From an uncultured Bacteroidia bacterium (GTDB lineage Bacteria > Bacteroidota > Bacteroidia > Bacteroidales > F082), in NCBI GenBank assembly GCA_902801625.1, contig CADCJI010000005.1:177696-241695 (forward strand): a stretch of DNA of 64,000 bases, in the 5' to 3' direction. Positions within the stretch are counted from its first letter, which is position 1. Every line of letters starts with the position of its first letter. Shown here in pieces: positions 32,738-46,243 of the stretch. A program made the position numbers and the translations under genes. The notes under the pieces are model-generated. The model was not told where the DNA came from, did not search any database, and was given only the letters and a program-made list of their open reading frames with translations.

Positions 32738-32803
32738 CTGAACCAGTTTTTTAAACGTCTCTTCCATATCATCGGCAGTTTGTTTTTGCTGCTTACTATT
32801 TAA
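32738..32803 (+). pseudogene. 5' stub of the initiating sugar transferase, at the edge of island II
   Basis: The phase reads L-N-Q-F-F-K-R-L-F-H-I-I-G-S-L-F-L-L-L-T-I-stop. The intact sugar transferase at 41108 starts M-Y-Q-H-F-F-K-R-L-F-D-I-I-G-S-L-I-L-L-P-F. The DNA words (aaacgtct, atcat.ggcagt.tg, ctgct) also match. The start codon has decayed (CTG) and one codon is missing. The rest of the gene is replaced by island II, and a full copy resumes 8.3 kb downstream. Confidence 0.85.
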
Positions 32804-32919: not shown

Positions 32920-34182
32920 ATGCTTTATCAATTCACACTCGGCAATTACAGGTCGTTCTATAAGAAACGGACATTAAGCCTAATGGCAGAAGGTATCTCG
33001 GAAGCACCCACCGACAACATCGCTATCGACGGCAAACAAAAAGTATTGAAAACACTTGCCATCTATGGTGCCAATTCGAGCGGCAAATCCAATCTGGTGA
33101 AGGCGATTTCGGAAATGAGACTAATGGTGCTGAAATCGAACAAATTGAACGATGATGAAAACTTAAGGCATTTTCCTTTCCTGTTTCAGGTGGGAGCGAA
33201 TCAAGAGCCAACTTTTTTTGAGATTGTTTTCTCAAACCACACCACGGTTTATCGTTATGGTTTTGAATATAATCGTGAGAAAATTGTCAGTGAATGGCTG
33301 TTTGAAAAGAAAGGTCGCGGCGAGAAGTTGCTCTTTATTCGTACAAACGAAGGCATAGATTGGGACGAAAAGGTCTTCCAAGAGGGGAACATGCCCGACA
33401 GCGTCAATCTTAATGACAATCGGTTGTTCCTTTCTCTTTGCAACCAATTGGGAGGGAAGGTATCAAAGTCCATTATGTCGTGGTTTCAAAATGATTTGTC
33501 GGTCATTTCGGGGTTGACCAACCAATATTACAGGACATACACGCAACGCTTGTTCAAAGAGAAAGACCCCAAAAGCGATAAGGCTTTAGCGTTGTTTAAG
33601 GATTTGCAGTTGGGTTTCAACCAGTTGAGAGTTCATGAAGAACCTAATGTGATGTTCAATGGGGAGGTTCCTTCTGATCTCGTTGAGTTTTTCAAAGGTA
33701 ATGAGAAGCGTACCGTGGTTGACTCAAGTCATAACCTTTATACCAAGACGGGAAAAGTATGCGGGACGGTCGACATTCCTTTCGAGGAATACGAGTCGGA
33801 CGGCACCCAAAAATTATTCGACCTTTCCGGTCCCATGTTCAATGTGTTGAGCGAGGGTAGCACTTTGGTTATCGATGAGCTTGATGCGAAGATGCATCCT
33901 TTAATTTCACAATATCTAATAAGCATCTTCAATAGTCCTACCAAAAACCCTCATAATGCCCAATTGGTATTTACCACACATGATACACATTTGCTTTCTT
34001 CGCATCTGCTAAGGCGCGACCAGATATGGTTTACCGAAAAAGACCAAGCTGAACAAACTGACTTGTACAACATGATGGATATTGTTCTTCCCGACGGAAC
34101 CAAGCCTCGCAATGATAGCAATTACGAGAAAAACTACGTTGCTGGACGCTATGGGGCTGTGCCTTACATCATAAACGATTGA
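32920..34182 (+). CDS. rloA: RloA-like AAA ATPase
   Basis: A 420-residue protein starting M-L-Y-Q-F-T-L-G-N-Y-R-S-F, with Walker A I-Y-G-A-N-S-S-G-K-S-N (~residues 48-58), Walker B L-V-I-D-E-L-D-A-K-M-H-P (~311) and H-loop F-T-T-H-D-T-H-L-L. This is the ATPase half of RloA/RloB pairs, first noted as restriction-linked ORFs and related in logic to PARIS (AriA/AriB) defence. The partner RloB begins 3 nt after the stop. It has its own promoter, so it is an independent unit within island II. Confidence 0.85.
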   Translation: MLYQFTLGNYRSFYKKRTLSLMAEGISEAPTDNIAIDGKQKVLKTLAIYGANSSGKSNLVKAISEMRLMVLKSNKLNDDENLRHFPFLFQVGANQEPTFFEIVFSNHTTVYRYGFEYNREKIVSEWLFEKKGRGEKLLFIRTNEGIDWDEKVFQEGNMPDSVNLNDNRLFLSLCNQLGGKVSKSIMSWFQNDLSVISGLTNQYYRTYTQRLFKEKDPKSDKALALFKDLQLGFNQLRVHEEPNVMFNGEVPSDLVEFFKGNEKRTVVDSSHNLYTKTGKVCGTVDIPFEEYESDGTQKLFDLSGPMFNVLSEGSTLVIDELDAKMHPLISQYLISIFNSPTKNPHNAQLVFTTHDTHLLSSHLLRRDQIWFTEKDQAEQTDLYNMMDIVLPDGTKPRNDSNYEKNYVAGRYGAVPYIIND

Positions 34183-34185
34183 GCT

Positions 34186-34902
34186 ATGGGTATTCGTAAA
34201 AAGCGTTTAAGTGAACAGGAAAGAAGGCGTTTTGGACAGCAAAAAGCCAAAAGAGTGCCTCGTCAAGTAGTGTGTAGGATATTGATTGTTTGTGAAGGTA
34301 CTAAGACGGAACCCAACTATTTCCGCGCTTTCAACAAAAAGAGTCACCAGTCGGTGGTCTACGACCTTGAGATTCATGGTGAGGGAGTGAACACCCGTCA
34401 GGTAGTGGACAAGGCCATAGAGCTACGCGACAAAAATCCCAATACCTTTGACAGAGTATGGGCGGTGTTCGACAAGGACGACTTCAGCGACCATGATTTC
34501 AATGCCGCCATACAGAAAGCCGAGGGAAATCAAATCAACTGTGCCTGGAGCAACGAGTCGTTTGAGCTATGGTATCTTTATCATTTCAAAAATGTCACCA
34601 CGAGTATTCCTCGTGAAGAGTTCTATCAGCGCATTTCAGTTTCTGTCAATGAGTCACCGCTTTATAAAAAGAAAAAGACATACAGCTACAAAAAGGGCGA
34701 CCCTGAAAACCACAAAATCATGAACACCTATGGCTCGGAAGTGGATGCCATCAGATGGGCCGAAGCCAAGAGTCAAACCTACGAAGACCGTCGATACGCC
34801 CAACACAATCCTTGTACGATGGTGTTCAAGCTGGTTCGTCAATTGGAAGGACTTGATGATGAATTGAATGCATCGGTGGTGCAGAAGATGGAAAATGGGT
34901 AA
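34186..34902 (+). CDS. rloB: RloB-like protein (TOPRIM-like effector)
   Basis: A 238-residue protein. The basic N-terminus is followed by R-I-L-I-V-C-E-G-T-K-T-E-P-N-Y-F (conserved Glu motif, ~residues 30-45), then V-W-A-V-F-D-K-D-D-F (D-x-D motif) and W-S-N-E-S-F-E-L-W-Y-L-Y-H-F. These match the RloB family, whose fold resembles TOPRIM nucleases. It is the probable effector activated by RloA. The 3-nt gap to rloA indicates co-translation. Confidence 0.85.
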   Translation: MGIRKKRLSEQERRRFGQQKAKRVPRQVVCRILIVCEGTKTEPNYFRAFNKKSHQSVVYDLEIHGEGVNTRQVVDKAIELRDKNPNTFDRVWAVFDKDDFSDHDFNAAIQKAEGNQINCAWSNESFELWYLYHFKNVTTSIPREEFYQRISVSVNESPLYKKKKTYSYKKGDPENHKIMNTYGSEVDAIRWAEAKSQTYEDRRYAQHNPCTMVFKLVRQLEGLDDELNASVVQKMENG

Positions 34903-34949: not shown

Positions 34950-37900
34950 ATGAAAGAACAACAACAAACCATAAGAGAACCACATCTTTTTAGATTCTCT
35001 TCAGCAAAGAGATATCTGAAGATTTACATTCCCGGCTTTGCCTTCAAACATGACGACAACAACGAAGGCAAGGACAAATTTGTGGGACGTGAAATACAGT
35101 TGCGTAAGCTTTATACTTGGCTGACGAGTGATTCTAAGTCTGGGTCATACCTCATCACGGGTTATCGTGGTATGGGCAAGTCACTCCTTGTGAAACGAGT
35201 GATTGACATGATTACCAGAGAGCCTAAGGCTTACAAGGAAGTTCTATTCCAATTTTCTATGGCATTGACAATTGTGGCTTGTTTTGTTGGAATAGAGATG
35301 TCGATAAAGTGGGCAGGGGTGCTACTGATTGCTTTAGCATTGTTGTTGGTGGCTATCTTGGAAGTGAGCAAGCAATGGAATTATGTGCTATACGAAAAAA
35401 ATATACATCGGTTCCCATTGCACCATATTTTCAGTAAGGATATGATAGCCAAAGTATGGCTGAAAATGACAGACCGTCGCAAACGTGAGTATAATACTAT
35501 TGCCGTAACAGTCAATCTTGGACAAGAAGTGCTACATGAACGTGATGTACTGAGTTTGATAGCACAAAACGTACGTGAGAAGTATGCCAAGTTTGTTCAT
35601 AATAGACAAAATCGCCCCATTACAAGTTATGTGGCTATTGGTGGTATTTGCATCGTGTCGTTTTTATTTACGCGTTATGTATTGTTTGAGCCAATTAAGC
35701 ATTTGGGAATTATATTACTTCAAAATCTGTCGGCGTTAGAGGGTAAGCAGACTTGGTTTTATGGAACTATTGTTGGAATACTGGAATGGATTCAATATCT
35801 GATAAATGGGAATGAGTTTTATAATCATATTTCAAGACTCTCTATCTATTTGTTCATTTATTATCTGATTGTACGAATACTGAAGGCAATCCGCAAACAC
35901 GCGTATTTCGTTTCTTTACCTTTCAATTCATTGAAGCGGCTGGATGTATTATGTGACCGCATAGCAGCAACGGTTAATGTGGAAGAAGGTTCTCACCCGC
36001 AATACAGCAGCAGTTTCTTTAACTTCTCCTTCGGCAAGGAGGGAAGAAGCAGGACTATATCGAAAGCTACAGTACGTGAGTTGGAGCAGGAGCTATTGGG
36101 CATAATCAATGATATCAATAGCGACGACTGCCCTCGTGATTACCGAGTGCAGTTTATCCTTGTTTTTGATGAACTGGATAAGATAACCAAAGCAGCGCAG
36201 AAACGCGAACGAAATCAAGAAACTAATGAAGAATCGGTACCTGAATTTGACACTTCAATGAAGGGCTTCACCGACGATATGGCCTACGAGGAACGCAAAC
36301 AGAACGTATTACGCTTGCTGGCCAATATGAAATTGTTTATTGCCTCGGTGAAGGCCAAATGTGTTTTCATATCTGGTCATGAGCTATTTGATGCTTCTCT
36401 AGCCGACTTGTCCGATCGCGAGTTTGCTATCAGCAGTATTTTCAATGGTGTACTGAATGTGAGCAGTTTCCTCTCGCCAGAACATGAACAATCGGATGTC
36501 AGCTCTATGACTGAGGTTTATCTGGCTACCATGTTGCTGCCAGATGACTACTTAAAGCAAAAAATTAAGGATAATGTGGTGGACAACGGGGTGTTGAAAG
36601 ATGAGCTGCCAAGTCTTCGCTGGTATAACGAGTATTTAATGGAGCAACATGTGCTGAAACATCCAGTCACAAAAGATAAGGAAGAAATAAAAGATTGTGT
36701 GGAAGAGATACGCCATGTAATGGAGTTCCTACGTTGTTTCTCAGTTTATCTTTCACATGTCAGCAATGGTTCGCCGAAGAAAATCGCCACCTACTTTGAG
36801 AAATACGTTAAGGTGAATTACGATGCCATACGGCAGTTTGATTGGTGTGATGAGATTGTGGTTGGCAAACCAACCGAAAAGGATGTCCGTAAACAATGTG
36901 TACTCTTTTTCAGTCCAGAGGATCAAAAACTCATCAACTTTGTTCATTATATAGCATCGCCGGTGATGAGTGCCATCACCAATGAGGTGAGTCACTATGG
37001 TGACAAGTTGCTTGTGTCGTCATCGTTCATGCTTGACCAAATATACAAATATCATGGCAAGGGCTTCTCATGGCGCAACCTAGAACAGATGCCCGAATTG
37101 CTCAACTCGAACAAGAACCCTGAATTGCGTGATTCAATGTCGGCCATTGTTGAATTTTTACTGCAGACACATATTACCCTCATTTCTTCAGGTATTTTCC
37201 AATATAAATTTCATAAACAGATAGCAGAAGAAATCTCCAACTTATCGAAGACTTCTGAGGAGGCTGCAGCCATGTTCAACTTCACCCTCAACGAGTCTGA
37301 AACCGTGAAACGCTACAATACACGTCTGCTTTGGCATTATGTAAACTTGGCCAAAAATCTCAAAGATAGCACACGTTATAATACCGTGTTAGAACGTATT
37401 CATGAGAATCTAGGCGACATATATTTTTCTGAGGAGGACTATTATAGAGCCATCCACGAATACCGCAATGCACTACAATATATCACGGCCGTTGACATCA
37501 CTTCATCCAACGTTCTTTCGTATTTGAAATGCAGTCTCAAGGTGGGCATGTCATACGAATACAGACGCACCTTTGAGAATGCCTATATGGTATATTGCCG
37601 CATTATCAACCAATTGGTACATCTGCAGTGGTTCGAGGAATCGGGATTGGGATTGGACTATACTATGCGGCTTACTAAGGATTGGCGAGTGAAGCAACCC
37701 GTGTTGGTCAACCATGATGCCACTCGTTGGCTGTTTGGTCATTACACTGATACTGACTATCGTCGCCAATTCCAGTCGGGACTACTTGAAGATATTGACA
37801 AAGACAAAAACTATTTCCACCCTGAATATAGCCTTGATTCTGACAAGACCATCTCTGGCTTGTCGGCCAATTATACACCAGAAAAGAGTGACATTTTCTT

Positions 37901-40361
37901 AAAATTAACCGCCTTTGAGGATGTGAAATACATCTATCAGGCCATTATTGCCAAACTATTTGTAATTGAGAAAATGGAGGCAAGCGGCATCACTCAGTCA
38001 AGTATCGATGCAGCCGAGGCTGAGTTTATTACCCTCTACAGTGCTACTAATTTCGATGAGAAATTTATGATGGCAGTTGATTTTTTCAGCAAATTGGCAG
38101 GCATTCTTTACTACAAAAATAACTTCGTGTCGGCAGCTCCTGTCAACAATATGTCGTCAGCCTTGTATGTGTTCGATATCAATGTGATGGCGTTGCTCGA
38201 TGATTATTGTTTCAAAGTATGCGGAGATAGCGGTTCAGACGATGCTATCAAAATAAAAGATGATGTTAGGATGTTTTTCAGCATATTGAAAGATTATGAT
38301 GTTGAAACAGCGAGCTGTTTTGAGAACTTGCTAACGAATATTAAAAGAAAGGAAGAACCTGAAAAATTTGAACAAACTCTTTCTCAAATTAGGAGTAACG
38401 TTGAAGGCTATTTAAAATATTTAGACAATAATAACTTTGGGTCGATAGAACCAAATGTAAACATAGTTGTGAAATTGTGGGATAGGATGAAGGACTGTGC
38501 CGACAGGCGTGAAAAGCTTTCTAAAGTTGGGTGTAAGCTTCCTTGCAATGCCTGTAAATATGCCAATCGAAGTCTTATCATTCTGATGGAAAAGATGTTT
38601 GCGACAAATGACTATGATGCTAGCTTGAAAGACAGCAAAGCCATCACCCTACTTCGAAACACTTCGCACCGTCATGTGCGTTTTCTCCGCAGGGAACACT
38701 TATCGGCTCTTGCTTATTCAGCCGAGCAGATGGCCGACCTTATGCTGTCTTGTGCTTGCACTAACATGGTTAAGGGGTCAGAGGATAAGGTGGATATTCA
38801 CGATGTAATTCAAGGTGAGACAGTCAATTTGTTGTGTTGTCTTTCTGAAACCACCATAGAGGAGAATAAGAGGAAAGAAGTTATTGAAGAATACGTAACG
38901 AGTATTAAGAAAGCTGGAAAAATAGGCAAGTTAGACCGAGCTTTGCTTTATTATTGGTCCTCTAGCCGATACTATGAGATTGCCTCTATGTATCAGGAAT
39001 CTATTCATTGTCTTGATCGTATTGCCAAAGTGATAGAAAATTACCTATTTGTGACAAATCTGAAGAAATGCAATTACATTATTCTTGATTGGACAAAATT
39101 GCTAGATAATCTCTTTACTCATGCTTCAAGAACAGTTGGACGACAGTATGATAACTTAGATATGGCAGAGATTCACGAATATAAATGGCTTTTACATCTA
39201 GAACATACTGATGATATTGACCTTGCAAAACTGACACAGTTCCCCAATCTCCAGTCTCTTTTCCTTTCATTGGTGAGAAGCAAAATCATGTTATTTAGGA
39301 AATCTGACATTATCCAATTATGTGATTATGTCCAAAAGATTTATCCTCGTGTAGCACCTGAACTTCGGCAAGAATGTACTTTTAAGTCAGAAGTCTATTT
39401 AAACTATACAAAGGCATTACTAAACCACTATATCTTTATTGATTTAATGGGGCGTGATTTTATGCAGACATATCGTAATAGTTTGTTTGACAAAAAGAAA
39501 TACTATCAAATCCCATTTTTTGAGTCGCTTGAGGCATACTTGACATCTGACAGGCAAAAGAATATTGAAACTGATTTGTTCAGAATTGATTGTTCGGTGC
39601 AGTCGCGGCTTGATTTGGTTGATTATTTGGTGTTCGATTCGTTAGTGTGTCTTTATAACGTCATTAAGATACTTCCGCCGCACAATCAAATCACTACTTT
39701 TTCCAATAGTTTTGTGGCAGATGTGTATGGCGATTTGTGGGAATGGTCGAAGTATTACGAAATGCTCTATAACCTTTATTTTTATTATCGTTGCTATAGT
39801 GTGGGTGATGAAAAGGGTATGGGAAAGATTGTTCGAATGATGGAACGTACTGCAGAGGTAAAGGGAAAGAAATCCAACGAAATGCTGTCTTTGCTAAACA
39901 AATGTGTATCTGTGATGTGTGATGGAGAGGTTATGTGTATGGATGATTTTGGCTATCGTTATTCCAAATTGTTTATGAATTTGCGTCACGAAATGGATGA
40001 TGCCACCATCCATCACATTTATACTAACTATTCCGCAGAGATGGCGGTAAAATACTACCGTGCAGCACGTGGCGTCAACAGCGAGGGTATGGAATACAAG
40101 AACCTTATCTATGGCATGTATGTGCTCGATGATGACCTTCGCAATGACACTTGTCAGTCGAACTTGGCCGATGAACGATATTTGATTAATAGTGGTGTGA
40201 TTAACCTAAAACGTAAGCAGTTGCAAAAGATGTATGAAGATTCCAACATCAATCGGATGCGCTATTATGAGGAACCGCGTAAAGATGATGATGAACGGTC
40301 ACCATATGATAAGTTACAAGGAAGATACCAAGATTCTCCTTTTCTCAATACGGAATACTAA
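34950..40361 (+). CDS. Giant KAP-like membrane P-loop NTPase with TPR-like C-terminal region
   Basis: A 1803-residue protein. Walker A is G-Y-R-G-M-G-K-S-L (~residues 70-78) and Walker B is F-I-L-V-F-D-E-L-D-K-I (~402-412). Between them lie hydrophobic segments at ~96-140, ~226-247 and ~297-312. Membrane helices inserted between the two Walker motifs are the hallmark of KAP NTPases (which include the phage-exclusion protein PifA), hence the call; overall similarity is unverified. From about residue 800 there are TPR-like helices (L-G-D-I-Y-F-S-E-E-D-Y-Y-R-A-I-H-E-Y). A Cys cluster C-x3-C-x2-C lies near 1193. The ATG at 34950 is chosen over the upstream TTG at 34923, which would add a poly-Phe leader. 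A two-helix membrane gene follows after 23 bp. Suggested role: membrane-anchored sensor or abortive-infection ATPase. Confidence 0.65.
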   Translation: MKEQQQTIREPHLFRFSSAKRYLKIYIPGFAFKHDDNNEGKDKFVGREIQLRKLYTWLTSDSKSGSYLITGYRGMGKSLLVKRVIDMITREPKAYKEVLFQFSMALTIVACFVGIEMSIKWAGVLLIALALLLVAILEVSKQWNYVLYEKNIHRFPLHHIFSKDMIAKVWLKMTDRRKREYNTIAVTVNLGQEVLHERDVLSLIAQNVREKYAKFVHNRQNRPITSYVAIGGICIVSFLFTRYVLFEPIKHLGIILLQNLSALEGKQTWFYGTIVGILEWIQYLINGNEFYNHISRLSIYLFIYYLIVRILKAIRKHAYFVSLPFNSLKRLDVLCDRIAATVNVEEGSHPQYSSSFFNFSFGKEGRSRTISKATVRELEQELLGIINDINSDDCPRDYRVQFILVFDELDKITKAAQKRERNQETNEESVPEFDTSMKGFTDDMAYEERKQNVLRLLANMKLFIASVKAKCVFISGHELFDASLADLSDREFAISSIFNGVLNVSSFLSPEHEQSDVSSMTEVYLATMLLPDDYLKQKIKDNVVDNGVLKDELPSLRWYNEYLMEQHVLKHPVTKDKEEIKDCVEEIRHVMEFLRCFSVYLSHVSNGSPKKIATYFEKYVKVNYDAIRQFDWCDEIVVGKPTEKDVRKQCVLFFSPEDQKLINFVHYIASPVMSAITNEVSHYGDKLLVSSSFMLDQIYKYHGKGFSWRNLEQMPELLNSNKNPELRDSMSAIVEFLLQTHITLISSGIFQYKFHKQIAEEISNLSKTSEEAAAMFNFTLNESETVKRYNTRLLWHYVNLAKNLKDSTRYNTVLERIHENLGDIYFSEEDYYRAIHEYRNALQYITAVDITSSNVLSYLKCSLKVGMSYEYRRTFENAYMVYCRIINQLVHLQWFEESGLGLDYTMRLTKDWRVKQPVLVNHDATRWLFGHYTDTDYRRQFQSGLLEDIDKDKNYFHPEYSLDSDKTISGLSANYTPEKSDIFLKLTAFEDVKYIYQAIIAKLFVIEKMEASGITQSSIDAAEAEFITLYSATNFDEKFMMAVDFFSKLAGILYYKNNFVSAAPVNNMSSALYVFDINVMALLDDYCFKVCGDSGSDDAIKIKDDVRMFFSILKDYDVETASCFENLLTNIKRKEEPEKFEQTLSQIRSNVEGYLKYLDNNNFGSIEPNVNIVVKLWDRMKDCADRREKLSKVGCKLPCNACKYANRSLIILMEKMFATNDYDASLKDSKAITLLRNTSHRHVRFLRREHLSALAYSAEQMADLMLSCACTNMVKGSEDKVDIHDVIQGETVNLLCCLSETTIEENKRKEVIEEYVTSIKKAGKIGKLDRALLYYWSSSRYYEIASMYQESIHCLDRIAKVIENYLFVTNLKKCNYIILDWTKLLDNLFTHASRTVGRQYDNLDMAEIHEYKWLLHLEHTDDIDLAKLTQFPNLQSLFLSLVRSKIMLFRKSDIIQLCDYVQKIYPRVAPELRQECTFKSEVYLNYTKALLNHYIFIDLMGRDFMQTYRNSLFDKKKYYQIPFFESLEAYLTSDRQKNIETDLFRIDCSVQSRLDLVDYLVFDSLVCLYNVIKILPPHNQITTFSNSFVADVYGDLWEWSKYYEMLYNLYFYYRCYSVGDEKGMGKIVRMMERTAEVKGKKSNEMLSLLNKCVSVMCDGEVMCMDDFGYRYSKLFMNLRHEMDDATIHHIYTNYSAEMAVKYYRAARGVNSEGMEYKNLIYGMYVLDDDLRNDTCQSNLADERYLINSGVINLKRKQLQKMYEDSNINRMRYYEEPRKDDDERSPYDKLQGRYQDSPFLNTEY

Positions 40362-40384
40362 GAATGATTTAAACTTTGAGTATT

Positions 40385-41104
40385 ATGGAAGATGAACACA
40401 AATCATTAGAGCCTCAGCAGGATAATGAAACCCTTCGGAATACTGCTACACTTACAGAGATGATGGACGACGAGATAGAGGAAACATCATCCCAAGACAC
40501 TCCAGACGAAACCATAAAAAGTGATGATGATAATCCGATAGAAAATGGAGAAAGCGGGGATGATACTGTTGAAGAAACAACAGCAGAAGAAACTATAGAT
40601 AGAACACAGGGTGGAACGATTGATGCAGAGGAAACGCAAACAGAAGAATTACCAGAAGATGAAGAGCCCCCCTTAAGGGACGATAAAAGAGATGATATCA
40701 AAAAGGAAAATGTTATAGAAGAACTGTGCAAATACAAAAGTTCATTAGATTGTGATAAGTTTTGTAACATCTTAAAGTTTTTGGTCTTGATTTTATTGAG
40801 TTTAAGCGGAATAGTTTTACTGGTGTTGGTGAAGTTTGGTGTTTGGAATGTAAAGATGAATAGGAGTACTATTGTACTAATATATGGGTTGATTCTACTT
40901 TTTATAGTGGCAACAATTATTTTGTCTTTTATGCTTACAACGTCAAATCGTCGTTATGGATCTGCCATAAATAGACTTGACTTGCTGATAACAAGAATTG
41001 GTTTCATGAAAAATGAATCAAAAATGCTTTTAGATGTTCATCGTGAGTTGCAGCTAATTGCCAGGATATTGGAATTATCAAATGAAAAAACAATAAATGT
41101 TTAA
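40385..41104 (+). CDS. Acidic two-helix membrane protein, partner of the giant NTPase
   Basis: A 239-residue protein of unknown family. Residues 1-~110 are extremely acidic and probably disordered (many E/D/T/S, e.g. E-E-T-T-A-E-E-T-I-D). Two membrane helices lie at ~125-149 and ~160-184, and a cytoplasmic-looking helical tail follows. The ATG at 40385 is preferred to the in-frame TTG at 40376. It lies 23 bp after the NTPase gene and 3 bp before the sugar transferase. Its layout suits a membrane effector or anchor for the NTPase; a purely structural role is equally possible. Confidence 0.6.
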   Translation: MEDEHKSLEPQQDNETLRNTATLTEMMDDEIEETSSQDTPDETIKSDDDNPIENGESGDDTVEETTAEETIDRTQGGTIDAEETQTEELPEDEEPPLRDDKRDDIKKENVIEELCKYKSSLDCDKFCNILKFLVLILLSLSGIVLLVLVKFGVWNVKMNRSTIVLIYGLILLFIVATIILSFMLTTSNRRYGSAINRLDLLITRIGFMKNESKMLLDVHRELQLIARILELSNEKTINV

Positions 41105-41107
41105 CTC

Positions 41108-41722
41108 ATGTACCAACACTTCTTCAAACGTCTTTTTGACATCATAGGCAGTCTGATTCTGCTGCCGTTTATGCTCCTTGAAATCATAGTGCTTGCACCC
41201 ATTATATGGTTAACCGATAAAGGGCCGGTATTCTATAATGCCACACGGGCAGGGAAGGGATATAAGCCATTCAAGATGTTCAAATTGCGCTCGATGTATG
41301 TGAATTCGCCTGACTTGAAGAACCCCGATGGCTCTACATATAACAGCGATGATGATCCGAGGGTGACATCTATTGGTAGAATAATGAGAAAAACATCGTT
41401 GGATGAGTTTCCTCAATTCTTGAATATCCTGACAGGTGACATGAGTTTTGTTGGGCCGCGACCGAAATTGTACTCTAAAGGGCGTTTGGATAACGAAACC
41501 AACGAAGACATTATAAAGAGTTTTCGTGTGAAGCCGGGTGTCACTGGCTATGCCCAAGCTTATTTCCGTAATAGCATTACCCAGGAAGAGAAATTCCATT
41601 GGGATGCCTATTATGCCGACAATGTGACCTTGTGGATGGATATTAAGATTCTTTTCCAAACCGTTTGGTCGGTCATTGCCCGCAAAAACATCAACACTGA
41701 GCAGAGCTACAAGAAAAAATGA
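41108..41722 (+). CDS. Initiating sugar transferase (polyprenyl-phosphate phosphoglycosyl transferase)
   Basis: A 204-residue small-type transferase with one N-terminal re-entrant membrane helix (I-I-G-S-L-I-L-L-P-F-M-L-L-E-I-I), then K-M-F-K-L-R-S-M, the catalytic D-E of T-S-L-D-E-F-P-Q-F-L-N-I and V-G-P-R-P. It loads the first sugar-phosphate onto undecaprenyl phosphate at the inner membrane. Its first 22 codons are duplicated as a stub at 32738-32803, on the other side of island II. Its stop overlaps the ATP-grasp start by four bases. Confidence 0.9.
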   Translation: MYQHFFKRLFDIIGSLILLPFMLLEIIVLAPIIWLTDKGPVFYNATRAGKGYKPFKMFKLRSMYVNSPDLKNPDGSTYNSDDDPRVTSIGRIMRKTSLDEFPQFLNILTGDMSFVGPRPKLYSKGRLDNETNEDIIKSFRVKPGVTGYAQAYFRNSITQEEKFHWDAYYADNVTLWMDIKILFQTVWSVIARKNINTEQSYKKK

Positions 41723-44926: not shown

Positions 44927-46243
44927 ATGAAAGTATTGTTTCTACCTGCATACTTCTATCCAGAAACCGCGGCAAGTTCCTATTTAGGTGACAATATTAG
45001 GGATGCTTTATGCAAAGAAAGAATAGGCATAGAGCTGTATGTTCCTTCACCTTCTCGTGGTATTTCGGCTGAAGAAAGGAAGAAATACAAAAAGCTTAAA
45101 TACGAGAACCTTTCAGAAGGATATTTGAAAGTCCATCGTTTTTCCATATACGCCGAAGGCAAGAACCCCATACTACGTGCTTTGCGTTACGCTCTTTGTT
45201 CAATCAAGCACTTCAACCGTGGTGTCTTTGCCAAAGATGCCCGCACATGTGATGTGATGTTTATCTCCAGCACTCCCCCCATCCAAGGTGCCATGGCCGC
45301 TATGGTCAAGAAATGCCGCCGCGATCATATCCCCTTCGTCTACAACCTCCAAGACATTTTCCCCGATTCCCTTGTGGGCACTGGCCTCGCCAAGAAAGAC
45401 GGCTTACTTTGGAAAATCGGCCGTGTCATTGAGAACTTCACCTACCGCAATGCGGACAAGATCATCGTCATATCTCAAGACTTCAAGCGCAACATCATGG
45501 CCAAAGGTGTACCTGAAGAAAAGATTGAAGTCATCTATAACTGGGTGGATGAGAATGCCATTATCCCCGTGAAAGATGAAGAAAATGAGCTTTTTGAGGA
45601 GTTCGGCATCAGCAGGGATAAGTTCAGGGTGGTGTATGCCGGCAATCTGGGCAATGCACAAAACATCGAAATCATCATCGAGGCTGCCAAACGGATAAGA
45701 GACAAAGGGAACATTGAGTTCGTCATCTTTGGCACTGGAGGGTTGGAGGATGAAATCAAGGCTACCAAAGAGAAAGAACAGTTGGATAACCTAAAGATCT
45801 TGCCTTTGCAGCCTTACGAACGGGTGGCCAAAGTGTATGGCTTGGGCCATGTGTGCATCGTGGCTTGCAAGCCGGGCTTGGGCGGCGCGGCCATGCCCAG
45901 CAAGACGTGGAGCATCATGTCGAGCGGACGGGCGGTGCTGGCCAATTTCGATGAAGGGGAGCTGAAGGAGATAGTGGAAGGCGGCCCTTCGACAAGCCCT
46001 TCGACAAGCTCAGGGACCGACTCAGGGACCGCAAAACCTTGTGGCGTGTTCACCAAAGCTGGGGATTTGGAGGGCTTTGTGGCTGCTATAGAAGAGCTGT
46101 CGCAGCATCCAGAAAGGTGTGCCGAGATGGGCAGGAACGGACGGCAGTTTATCTTGGAGAACTTGACGCGCGAGGTGGGGACGAGGAGGTATGTGGAGGT
46201 GATTCGGCAGGTGGCGGGGAATGGTTTAGAGTTTAGAGTTTAG
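44927..46243 (+). CDS. wbuB: WbuB-like glycosyltransferase (probable L-fucosaminyl transferase)
   Basis: A 438-residue GT4-family protein: F-L-P-A-Y-F-Y-P-E-T-A-A, I-S-S-T-P-P-I-Q-G, D-I-F-P-D-S-L-V, V-Y-A-G-N-L-G-N-A-Q-N-I and A-A-M-P-S-K-T-W-S-I. These resemble WbuB/WcaI-type transferases. WbuB uses UDP-L-FucNAc and normally sits next to fnlABC-wbuC, so this gene probably completes the pathway made by capEFG and wbuC ~38 kb upstream. A family B repeat adds residues ~353-370 in frame (S-T-S-P-S-T-S-S-G-T-D-S-G-T). The last codons (G-N-G-L-E-F-R-V-stop) run into a family A repeat, which supplies the stop. Confidence 0.8.
   Translation: MKVLFLPAYFYPETAASSYLGDNIRDALCKERIGIELYVPSPSRGISAEERKKYKKLKYENLSEGYLKVHRFSIYAEGKNPILRALRYALCSIKHFNRGVFAKDARTCDVMFISSTPPIQGAMAAMVKKCRRDHIPFVYNLQDIFPDSLVGTGLAKKDGLLWKIGRVIENFTYRNADKIIVISQDFKRNIMAKGVPEEKIEVIYNWVDENAIIPVKDEENELFEEFGISRDKFRVVYAGNLGNAQNIEIIIEAAKRIRDKGNIEFVIFGTGGLEDEIKATKEKEQLDNLKILPLQPYERVAKVYGLGHVCIVACKPGLGGAAMPSKTWSIMSSGRAVLANFDEGELKEIVEGGPSTSPSTSSGTDSGTAKPCGVFTKAGDLEGFVAAIEELSQHPERCAEMGRNGRQFILENLTREVGTRRYVEVIRQVAGNGLEFRV
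45981..46029. repeat. Family B repeat, in-frame inside the WbuB-like gene
   Basis: cggcccttcgacaagcccttcgacaag followed by ctcagggaccgactcaggga. The arm words are duplicated in tandem. The phase used gives a Ser/Thr/Gly-rich peptide, different from the V-P-E-P-V-E-G phase used in the NagB-like gene. Confidence 0.8.

Follow-up and report, generated by a model that had tools for sequence, protein, structure and literature searches.

Background

KAP NTPases with membrane helices inserted in the NTPase domain were reportedly described by Aravind et al. in 2004. KAP ATPases are named among the players in anti-phage immunity in PMC8195603, and PMC8594841 presents PifA of the F plasmid as a protein of abortive infection, with membrane depolarization as the suggested cause of death. 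For STAND ATPases with a TPR sensor, activation via stepwise release of autoinhibition is described in PMC6468293, and section 28 of PMC7159879 describes GAP1 systems with calcineurin-type phosphoesterases and SLATT proteins containing two transmembrane (TM) helices. The locus analyzed here lies in a 64,000-nucleotide stretch of contig CADCJI010000005.1 (positions 177,696 to 241,695), hereinafter the window, from an assembly of an uncultured Bacteroidia bacterium (GCA_902801625.1; 3.58 Mb, 62 contigs, 84% complete). It combines a gene for a giant membrane P-loop NTPase (hereinafter the giant) with an adjacent small gene for a two-helix membrane protein (the partner). These two genes almost certainly form a real conserved module; the best explanation, with roughly even chances of being correct, is a horizontally moving two-gene conflict module, probably anti-phage, in which the membrane NTPase would be of the abortive-infection kind.

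A giant membrane NTPase and its two-helix partner

The giant is encoded by an open reading frame (ORF) at 34950..40361 (plus strand, as are all elements of the giant and the partner below) that is open throughout, has relatives in other genomes and yields 1803 amino acids (aa) with no internal stop. Alignment and sequence place the Walker A motif, GYRGMGKS, at residues 71-78 (35160..35183) and the Walker B motif, FILVFDELDK, at residues 402-411 (36153..36182). Hydropathy analysis detects three hydrophobic segments (residues 97-115, 122-140 and 223-241), all between these two motifs. The first two make up TM pair 1 (residues 97-140, 35238..35369), which follows the P-loop helix; next come a soluble region marked by a conserved N.G.EV..E.D.L motif and then TM pair 2 (35616..35891), where hydropathy, alignment and sequence indicate residues 223-241 and approximately 297-314 with a loop of variable length between them. 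The fourth segment falls below the threshold in the window giant and above it in those of genomes G118, G388, G127 and G136. C-terminal to Walker B are a G.EL.DA..ADLSDR block and, at residues 606-611 (36765..36782), an aligned NGSPKK motif that by eye resembles a GxP-like lid motif. Further downstream, the alignment shows a cluster of cysteines, C1183, C1199 and C1202 (38496..38555).

The two Walker motifs, the G.EL.DA..ADLSDR block and NGSPKK are conserved across six aligned giants, and the key residues of each in 12; NGSPKK is kept in all six, with G607, P609, K610 and K611 present in 12 of 12. The three cysteines are likewise invariant in six of six, and C1202 in all 12. When the window giant is compared with five relatives in blocks of 50 residues, conservation is highest at 451-500 and 651-800 and lowest in the membrane parts, 101-150 and 251-300. 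Among the nine giants with hydropathy profiles, TM segments fall between Walker A and Walker B in the four where both patterns were matched (window, G388, G127 and G136); the other five have early TM segments too, and the G127 giant has one additional segment far toward the C-terminus.

The partner ORF (40385..41104) begins 23 base pairs (bp) after the giant and encodes 239 aa, with an acidic N-terminal arm (45 D/E versus 12 K/R in 128 residues), two strong TM helices identified by hydropathy (129-147 and 162-180) and a charged C-terminal tail. A two-TM gene comes next after the giant in 8 of the 14 loci with a visible downstream gene, that is, in the window, G118, G388, G127, G136, G099, G1044 and G072, the last of these being cut by a contig end and the other seven complete. 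The spacing is 6 to 23 bp (that in G136 assumes an internal ATG), with a 4-bp overlap in G072. Exactly two TM segments are found in only 4 of 110 ORFs of control regions, which come from 7 of the giant-bearing contigs or genomes, not from all. The partners of G127, G136, G1044, G099 and G388 are linked to one another by blastp, with E-values calculated in a ten-sequence set without composition correction, or by shuffling, some of the pairs among them not being significant. The arms vary, from acidic in the window to neutral in G118 (33 D/E, 34 K/R) and longer in others, so the recurring feature is the two-TM partner and not the acidic arm.

The earlier note on this sequence had described a giant NTPase whose membrane helices lie between the two Walker motifs, a cysteine cluster and, 23 bp away, a small two-helix membrane protein with an acidic arm, all of which are borne out; the neighborhood search it proposed for the pair recovers comparable pairs in other genomes. 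As a fixed or defining feature of the system, the acidic arm has to be abandoned given its lack of conservation between partners.

Relatives and phylogeny of the giant

Relatives of the giant are present in 16 further Bacteroidota genomes, two of which hold only fragments. Because 11 of these relatives are near full length (24-57% identity) and have the motifs conserved, the giant is more than a chance ORF; on these comparisons, it is a real, rare family. In the taxonomic family of the source organism, 7 of 173 genomes match the giant, its own included. Searches of the order and phylum with an alignment of six giants (E <= 0.001) yielded matches in 16 of 393 and 4 of 395 genomes, respectively, again counting its own. 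Of these, 11 in the order and 2 in the phylum are weak and extend over no more than the TPR motif or the P-loop. Besides the window, the strong matches are G388, G371, G556, G720 and a decayed C-terminal piece in G522. Two further families were searched: the first has matches in 3 of 43 genomes (G371 again, G976 and G961), and the second in 11 of 104, of which 7 are weak and the others are G388 again, G1044, G1036 and a contig-end fragment in G1038. No relatives were found in plasmids, phages or viral contigs; one was found among genome_contigs, on JAFZIP010000009.1, the contig of G388. Beyond Bacteroidota, cellular genomes were covered by a limited pattern scan only. The piece in G522 (L060 10610-10921) stands alone, with a stop in the neighboring matched piece, which suggests loss of the module.

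The tree includes 12 giants; G026 and G099, each split over two contigs, and G720 are not part of alignment A2 or the tree. In it, the window giant (genus g1) pairs with that of G118, to which it is 57% identical, and then joins G388 from another family. The giants of G127 and G136, congeners of the window organism, group with G1044, which belongs to the family of G388, and not with the window giant. Support at both cross-family groupings is 97-100 / 99-100, and the placement of G072, G556 and G1036, all on long branches, is uncertain. With the window giant grouping with another family, apart from its congeners, the tree fits horizontal spread.

Classification of the NTPase

The Pfam KAP profile (PF07693) touches 1 of 12 members (E = 0.0053), whereas AAA_16 touches 12 of 12 at E <= 0.1 (best 5.4e-9), with nSTAND1 in five and nSTAND6 in four members. 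The AAA_16 score of the window giant itself is 30.2 bits, below the cut-off of 32.6, and covers no more than the first 51 positions of the profile. The family profile scores at most 7.4 bits on six KAP proteins, among them PifA from an F plasmid, with none significant, compared with 5.6 for an AAA_16-type control. Profile-profile comparison with KAP aligns the P-loop (probability 77, 48 columns) and Walker B (probability 10, 21 columns) only. In the PDB, the family profile finds weak matches to TsaE, Cdc6-type proteins, DnaX and designed TPR chains (the latter at E = 6.6e-5 and weaker, profile positions approximately 868-904), and a single-sequence search with the giant finds none. The best PADLOC match of the giant is PDC-S02, at E = 0.044.

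Membership in the KAP family by sequence is not supported: neither the profile nor the profile-profile nor the family-profile searches are significant. The KAP-like character proposed in the earlier note holds for the topology, in that TM segments separate the two Walker motifs, and fails for sequence membership. We place the giant as a putative AAA+/STAND-type switch carrying a KAP-like membrane insert. The same note's TPR-like region of about 1000 residues is partly retained: a single recognizable TPR motif at residues 817-844 (37398..37481; TPR_2, E = 0.011), TPR_2 matches in 3 of 12 members and the designed-TPR matches are in its favor, but this evidence is thin and the extent of the region is less firm. 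Separately, G121 contains tandem KAP-family NTPase genes above the Pfam cut-off (L096 343-2223 and L089 328-2790), with apparent sugar-nucleotide epimerase genes nearby by eye.

The cassette and its capsule-gene boundaries

In the window, the giant and the partner belong to a cassette of four genes on a single strand, rloA, rloB, giant and partner, with gaps of 3, 47 and 23 bp. The first gene (32920..34182) encodes an RloA-like AAA_21 ATPase (E = 5.6e-29; PADLOC AbiLi, E = 1.4e-93) and the second (34186..34902) RloB (Pfam RloB, E = 1.3e-43; PADLOC AbiLii, E = 1.2e-28); both are on the plus strand directly upstream of the giant, as the earlier note had it. At the upstream edge, a capsule sugar-transferase gene has left a remnant of its 5' end (32744..32792, plus strand; 77.6% over 49 bp) that aligns to 41117-41165 with a score of 43, against a maximum of 32 in 500 shuffles. 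The intact sugar-transferase gene (Bac_transf, E = 7.6e-60; 41108..41722, plus strand) starts 3 bp past the end of the partner and forms the downstream edge. The earlier description of an island interrupting a capsule gene is therefore right, given that the remnant bounds the cassette upstream. The cassette has no further ORF of at least 80 aa free of overlap with its four genes, and hence no recombinase of that size. About 28 bp upstream of rloA is a TATCTTTG box, which we take to resemble the Bacteroidetes -7 element.

Similar arrangements are found in other genomes. G090, a congener that is not one of the seven giant-matching genomes of the family, has two sugar-transferase 5' remnants, one of only 21 bp, before the intact copy (L126 8310-8330, 6101-6136 and 3464-3499); between the remnants and the intact gene are an RloAB-like pair (AbiLi, 3.3e-72; AbiLii, 7.5e-12) and an NsnB/NsnC pair. 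The giant pair of G1044 sits between an intact cupin gene (Pfam DUF6016/Cupin_2), presumably wbuC, and a 221-bp, 84% identical copy of its 3' end and following bases (L085 11538-11936; L086 9559-9776). In G388, several wbuC fragments split small gene groups (L053 8183-8578, 10246-10573 and 12029-12184). The pattern suggests that capsule-gene ends may be entry points for cassettes, as if the sugar-transferase gene start were an insertion hotspot for defense cassettes. One of the wbuC-separated cassettes begins, by eye only, with a SIR2-like protein. Elsewhere in the window, a glycosyltransferase-like ORF (44927-46243) contains a PSTSPSTSSGTDSGT stretch (VPELVEG on the opposite strand) that resembles a short repeat element embedded in a coding gene.

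Neighboring genes and possible functions

The genes next to the giants include various effector types. RloB lies 47 bp from the window giant; on the same strand as the respective giant are also an FRG protein gene 63 bp away in G118, a TIR protein gene two genes on in G099, and a patatin gene 63 bp upstream in G026. In G388, a calcineurin-type phosphoesterase gene that overlaps by 4 bp is followed on the same strand by those for DO-GTPase2, DO-GTPase1 and GAP1-N1, placing the giant pair in line with this conflict system (L015 15626-22403). The pair of G1044 is followed by NsnA, NsnB, NsnC (PADLOC labels that presumably correspond to 'Menshen') and an AbiJ-type gene, and a Pycsar-type cyclase (E = 3.1e-107; L059 3046-3846) is encoded about 5 kb upstream of the G720 giant. 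In G118, an ATPase encoded downstream matches AbiLi weakly (E = 2.6e-6). The giant pair of G136 is followed immediately, on the same strand, by three proteins sharing a TQQGYVKT.GRP segment (L017 3-4181). The neighborhood evidence is mixed; a defense or conflict role of the giant and its partner is plausible and somewhat more probable than not. None of the titles and abstract openings listed in searches of open-access literature describes this pair; most subscription papers fall outside these searches, so that absence from print is not established.

Several observations weigh against a two-gene conflict module. At a PADLOC cut-off of E <= 1e-15, 113 flank ORFs match 25 families, compared to 50 families for 96 control ORFs (counts being per ORF set at the family level, not per ORF), so the flanks show no enrichment. 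KwaA, KwaB, AbiEii, AbiLi and LmuA are among the 25 control families listed of 50; the control stretches are a defense-rich background, yet the enrichment test failed as designed. Flanks extended to at most 7 kb, leaving NsnB and NsnC of G1044 outside; G388 and L015 are one contig and were counted once; before counting, 1 of 114 ORFs was dropped from the flanks and 14 of 110 from the controls (at region ends); and ORFs of more than 1500 aa were excluded, which left none from control region L138, so that the 96 control ORFs come from 9 of 10 regions. No single effector is shared between loci, and among the loci read RloAB accompanies the window giant only. The giants of G371, G976, G961, G556, G026 and G720 are not followed by a two-TM gene. 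The window partner shows a weak likeness to that of G118 (score reached by 15 of 1000 shuffles) and no clear resemblance to the remaining partners (72 to 376 of 1000); it could be either a fast-changing homologue or a replacement. An AlphaFold2 model of giant residues 1-817 from a two-sequence input has a mean predicted local distance difference test (pLDDT) score of 31.5. To these are added the polysaccharide genes near some giants, considered below.

The alternative that survives best, although unlikely, is that the giant and partner are a sensor or switch common to exchangeable effectors (TIR, FRG, phosphoesterase, patatin and RloAB) that kill or arrest the cell. The differing effector-type genes in line with the giant or the pair in the window, G118, G388, G099 and G026 speak for it, but the 500 bp that follow the G1044 pair contain no gene, no effector is recognized by eye beside the giants of G371, G976 and G961, and the G388 genes constitute a system that section 28 of PMC7159879 describes without a giant.

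It is less probable still that the giant is a capsule or envelope machine, involved in regulation or control of polysaccharide synthesis, which looks like defense only because capsule loci collect mobile genes. Four giants are in polysaccharide loci (the window according to Pfam; G118, G1044 and G556 mostly by eye) and a fifth, in G388, is about 9 kb from a wbuC-like gene, and a capsule-related role is thereby allowed; moreover, an MBOAT acyltransferase gene lies 21 bp after the G556 giant and, by eye, one glycosyltransferase-like gene converges on that of G961. Against this, no polysaccharide genes were noticed by eye in the read flanks of G127, G136, G099, G371, G976, G026 and G720, the giant is sporadic, as the family counts show, and its other close neighbors are of effector types. 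Finally, a single four-gene defense system, in which the membrane NTPase would act through RloAB as its effector arm, can be considered improbable notwithstanding the shared strand, close spacing and common cassette: in the loci read, no giant other than that of the window has a recognized RloAB next to it, which speaks against RloAB as a fixed part of the system, and the RloAB-like pair of G090 occupies the same kind of site in a genome outside the giant-matching set.

A proposed mechanism

Under the preferred explanation, a horizontally moving two-gene conflict module, the first gene would encode a membrane-anchored AAA+/STAND-type ATP switch in which four membrane helices interrupt the P-loop core, an arrangement known from KAP proteins; sensing would fall to the long C-terminal region, which is probably helical; and the second gene would encode a two-helix membrane protein docking on the giant. 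At rest, the NTPase would be ADP-bound; an infection cue would bind the C-terminal region, and ATP binding would lead to assembly in the membrane. The NTPase helices together with the partner hairpin could then open the membrane, through a pore or depolarization, or the signal could be passed to a co-encoded effector, and the infected cells would die or stop growing. The STAND/TPR, PifA and KAP parallels for this scheme are all analogies, and a membrane-perturbing mechanism of the giant and partner is, at this point, tentative and rather doubtful.

If anti-phage, the module would differ from soluble NLR-like sensors in having its large NTPase sensor embedded in the membrane, accompanied by a separate membrane partner and by neighbors that change; capsule loci would be pointed to as places of defense-cassette insertion, and surface variation would be linked with internal immunity. 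A bolder and rather improbable proposition is that these systems might represent a new class of membrane-embedded immune receptors in Bacteroidota, in which an AAA+/STAND switch with a membrane-threaded ATPase core is combined with a quickly changing two-helix partner; together with exchangeable effectors, the two would travel in cassettes whose points of entry into capsule loci are gene ends (the 5' end for the sugar transferase, the 3' end for wbuC).

Comparison with known systems

RloA/RloB (PADLOC AbiL) share the cassette, and probably the transcript, with the giant pair in the window but are a separate known defense pair that is not recognized beside other giants. The DO-GTPase/GAP1 systems with SLATT resemble the module in combining an NTPase with a two-TM protein, and the G388 pair is directly in line with one of them; however, the giant is of the AAA type, not a DO-GTPase, and the scanned partners lack Pfam SLATT matches (none for the window partner at E <= 1, nor for six other partners at limits of 0.05 to 0.01). 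A match of the window partner to PycTM over the TM pair is marginal (E = 0.0081), and membrane composition alone can give such matches.

The STAND ATPases with a TPR sensor (MalT, PH0952 and NLR-like proteins) resemble the giant in the AAA_16-type P-loop near the N-terminus, the GxP-like motif seen by eye and some C-terminal TPR signal. The giant differs in having membrane helices inside the NTPase core and no recognized N-terminal effector, and its TPR evidence is thin. With KAP/PifA, the giant shares the membrane helices within the NTPase domain but not sequence membership, and it is far larger (1803 aa compared to 741 aa in PifA), with a long C-terminal region and a separate gene for a two-TM partner.

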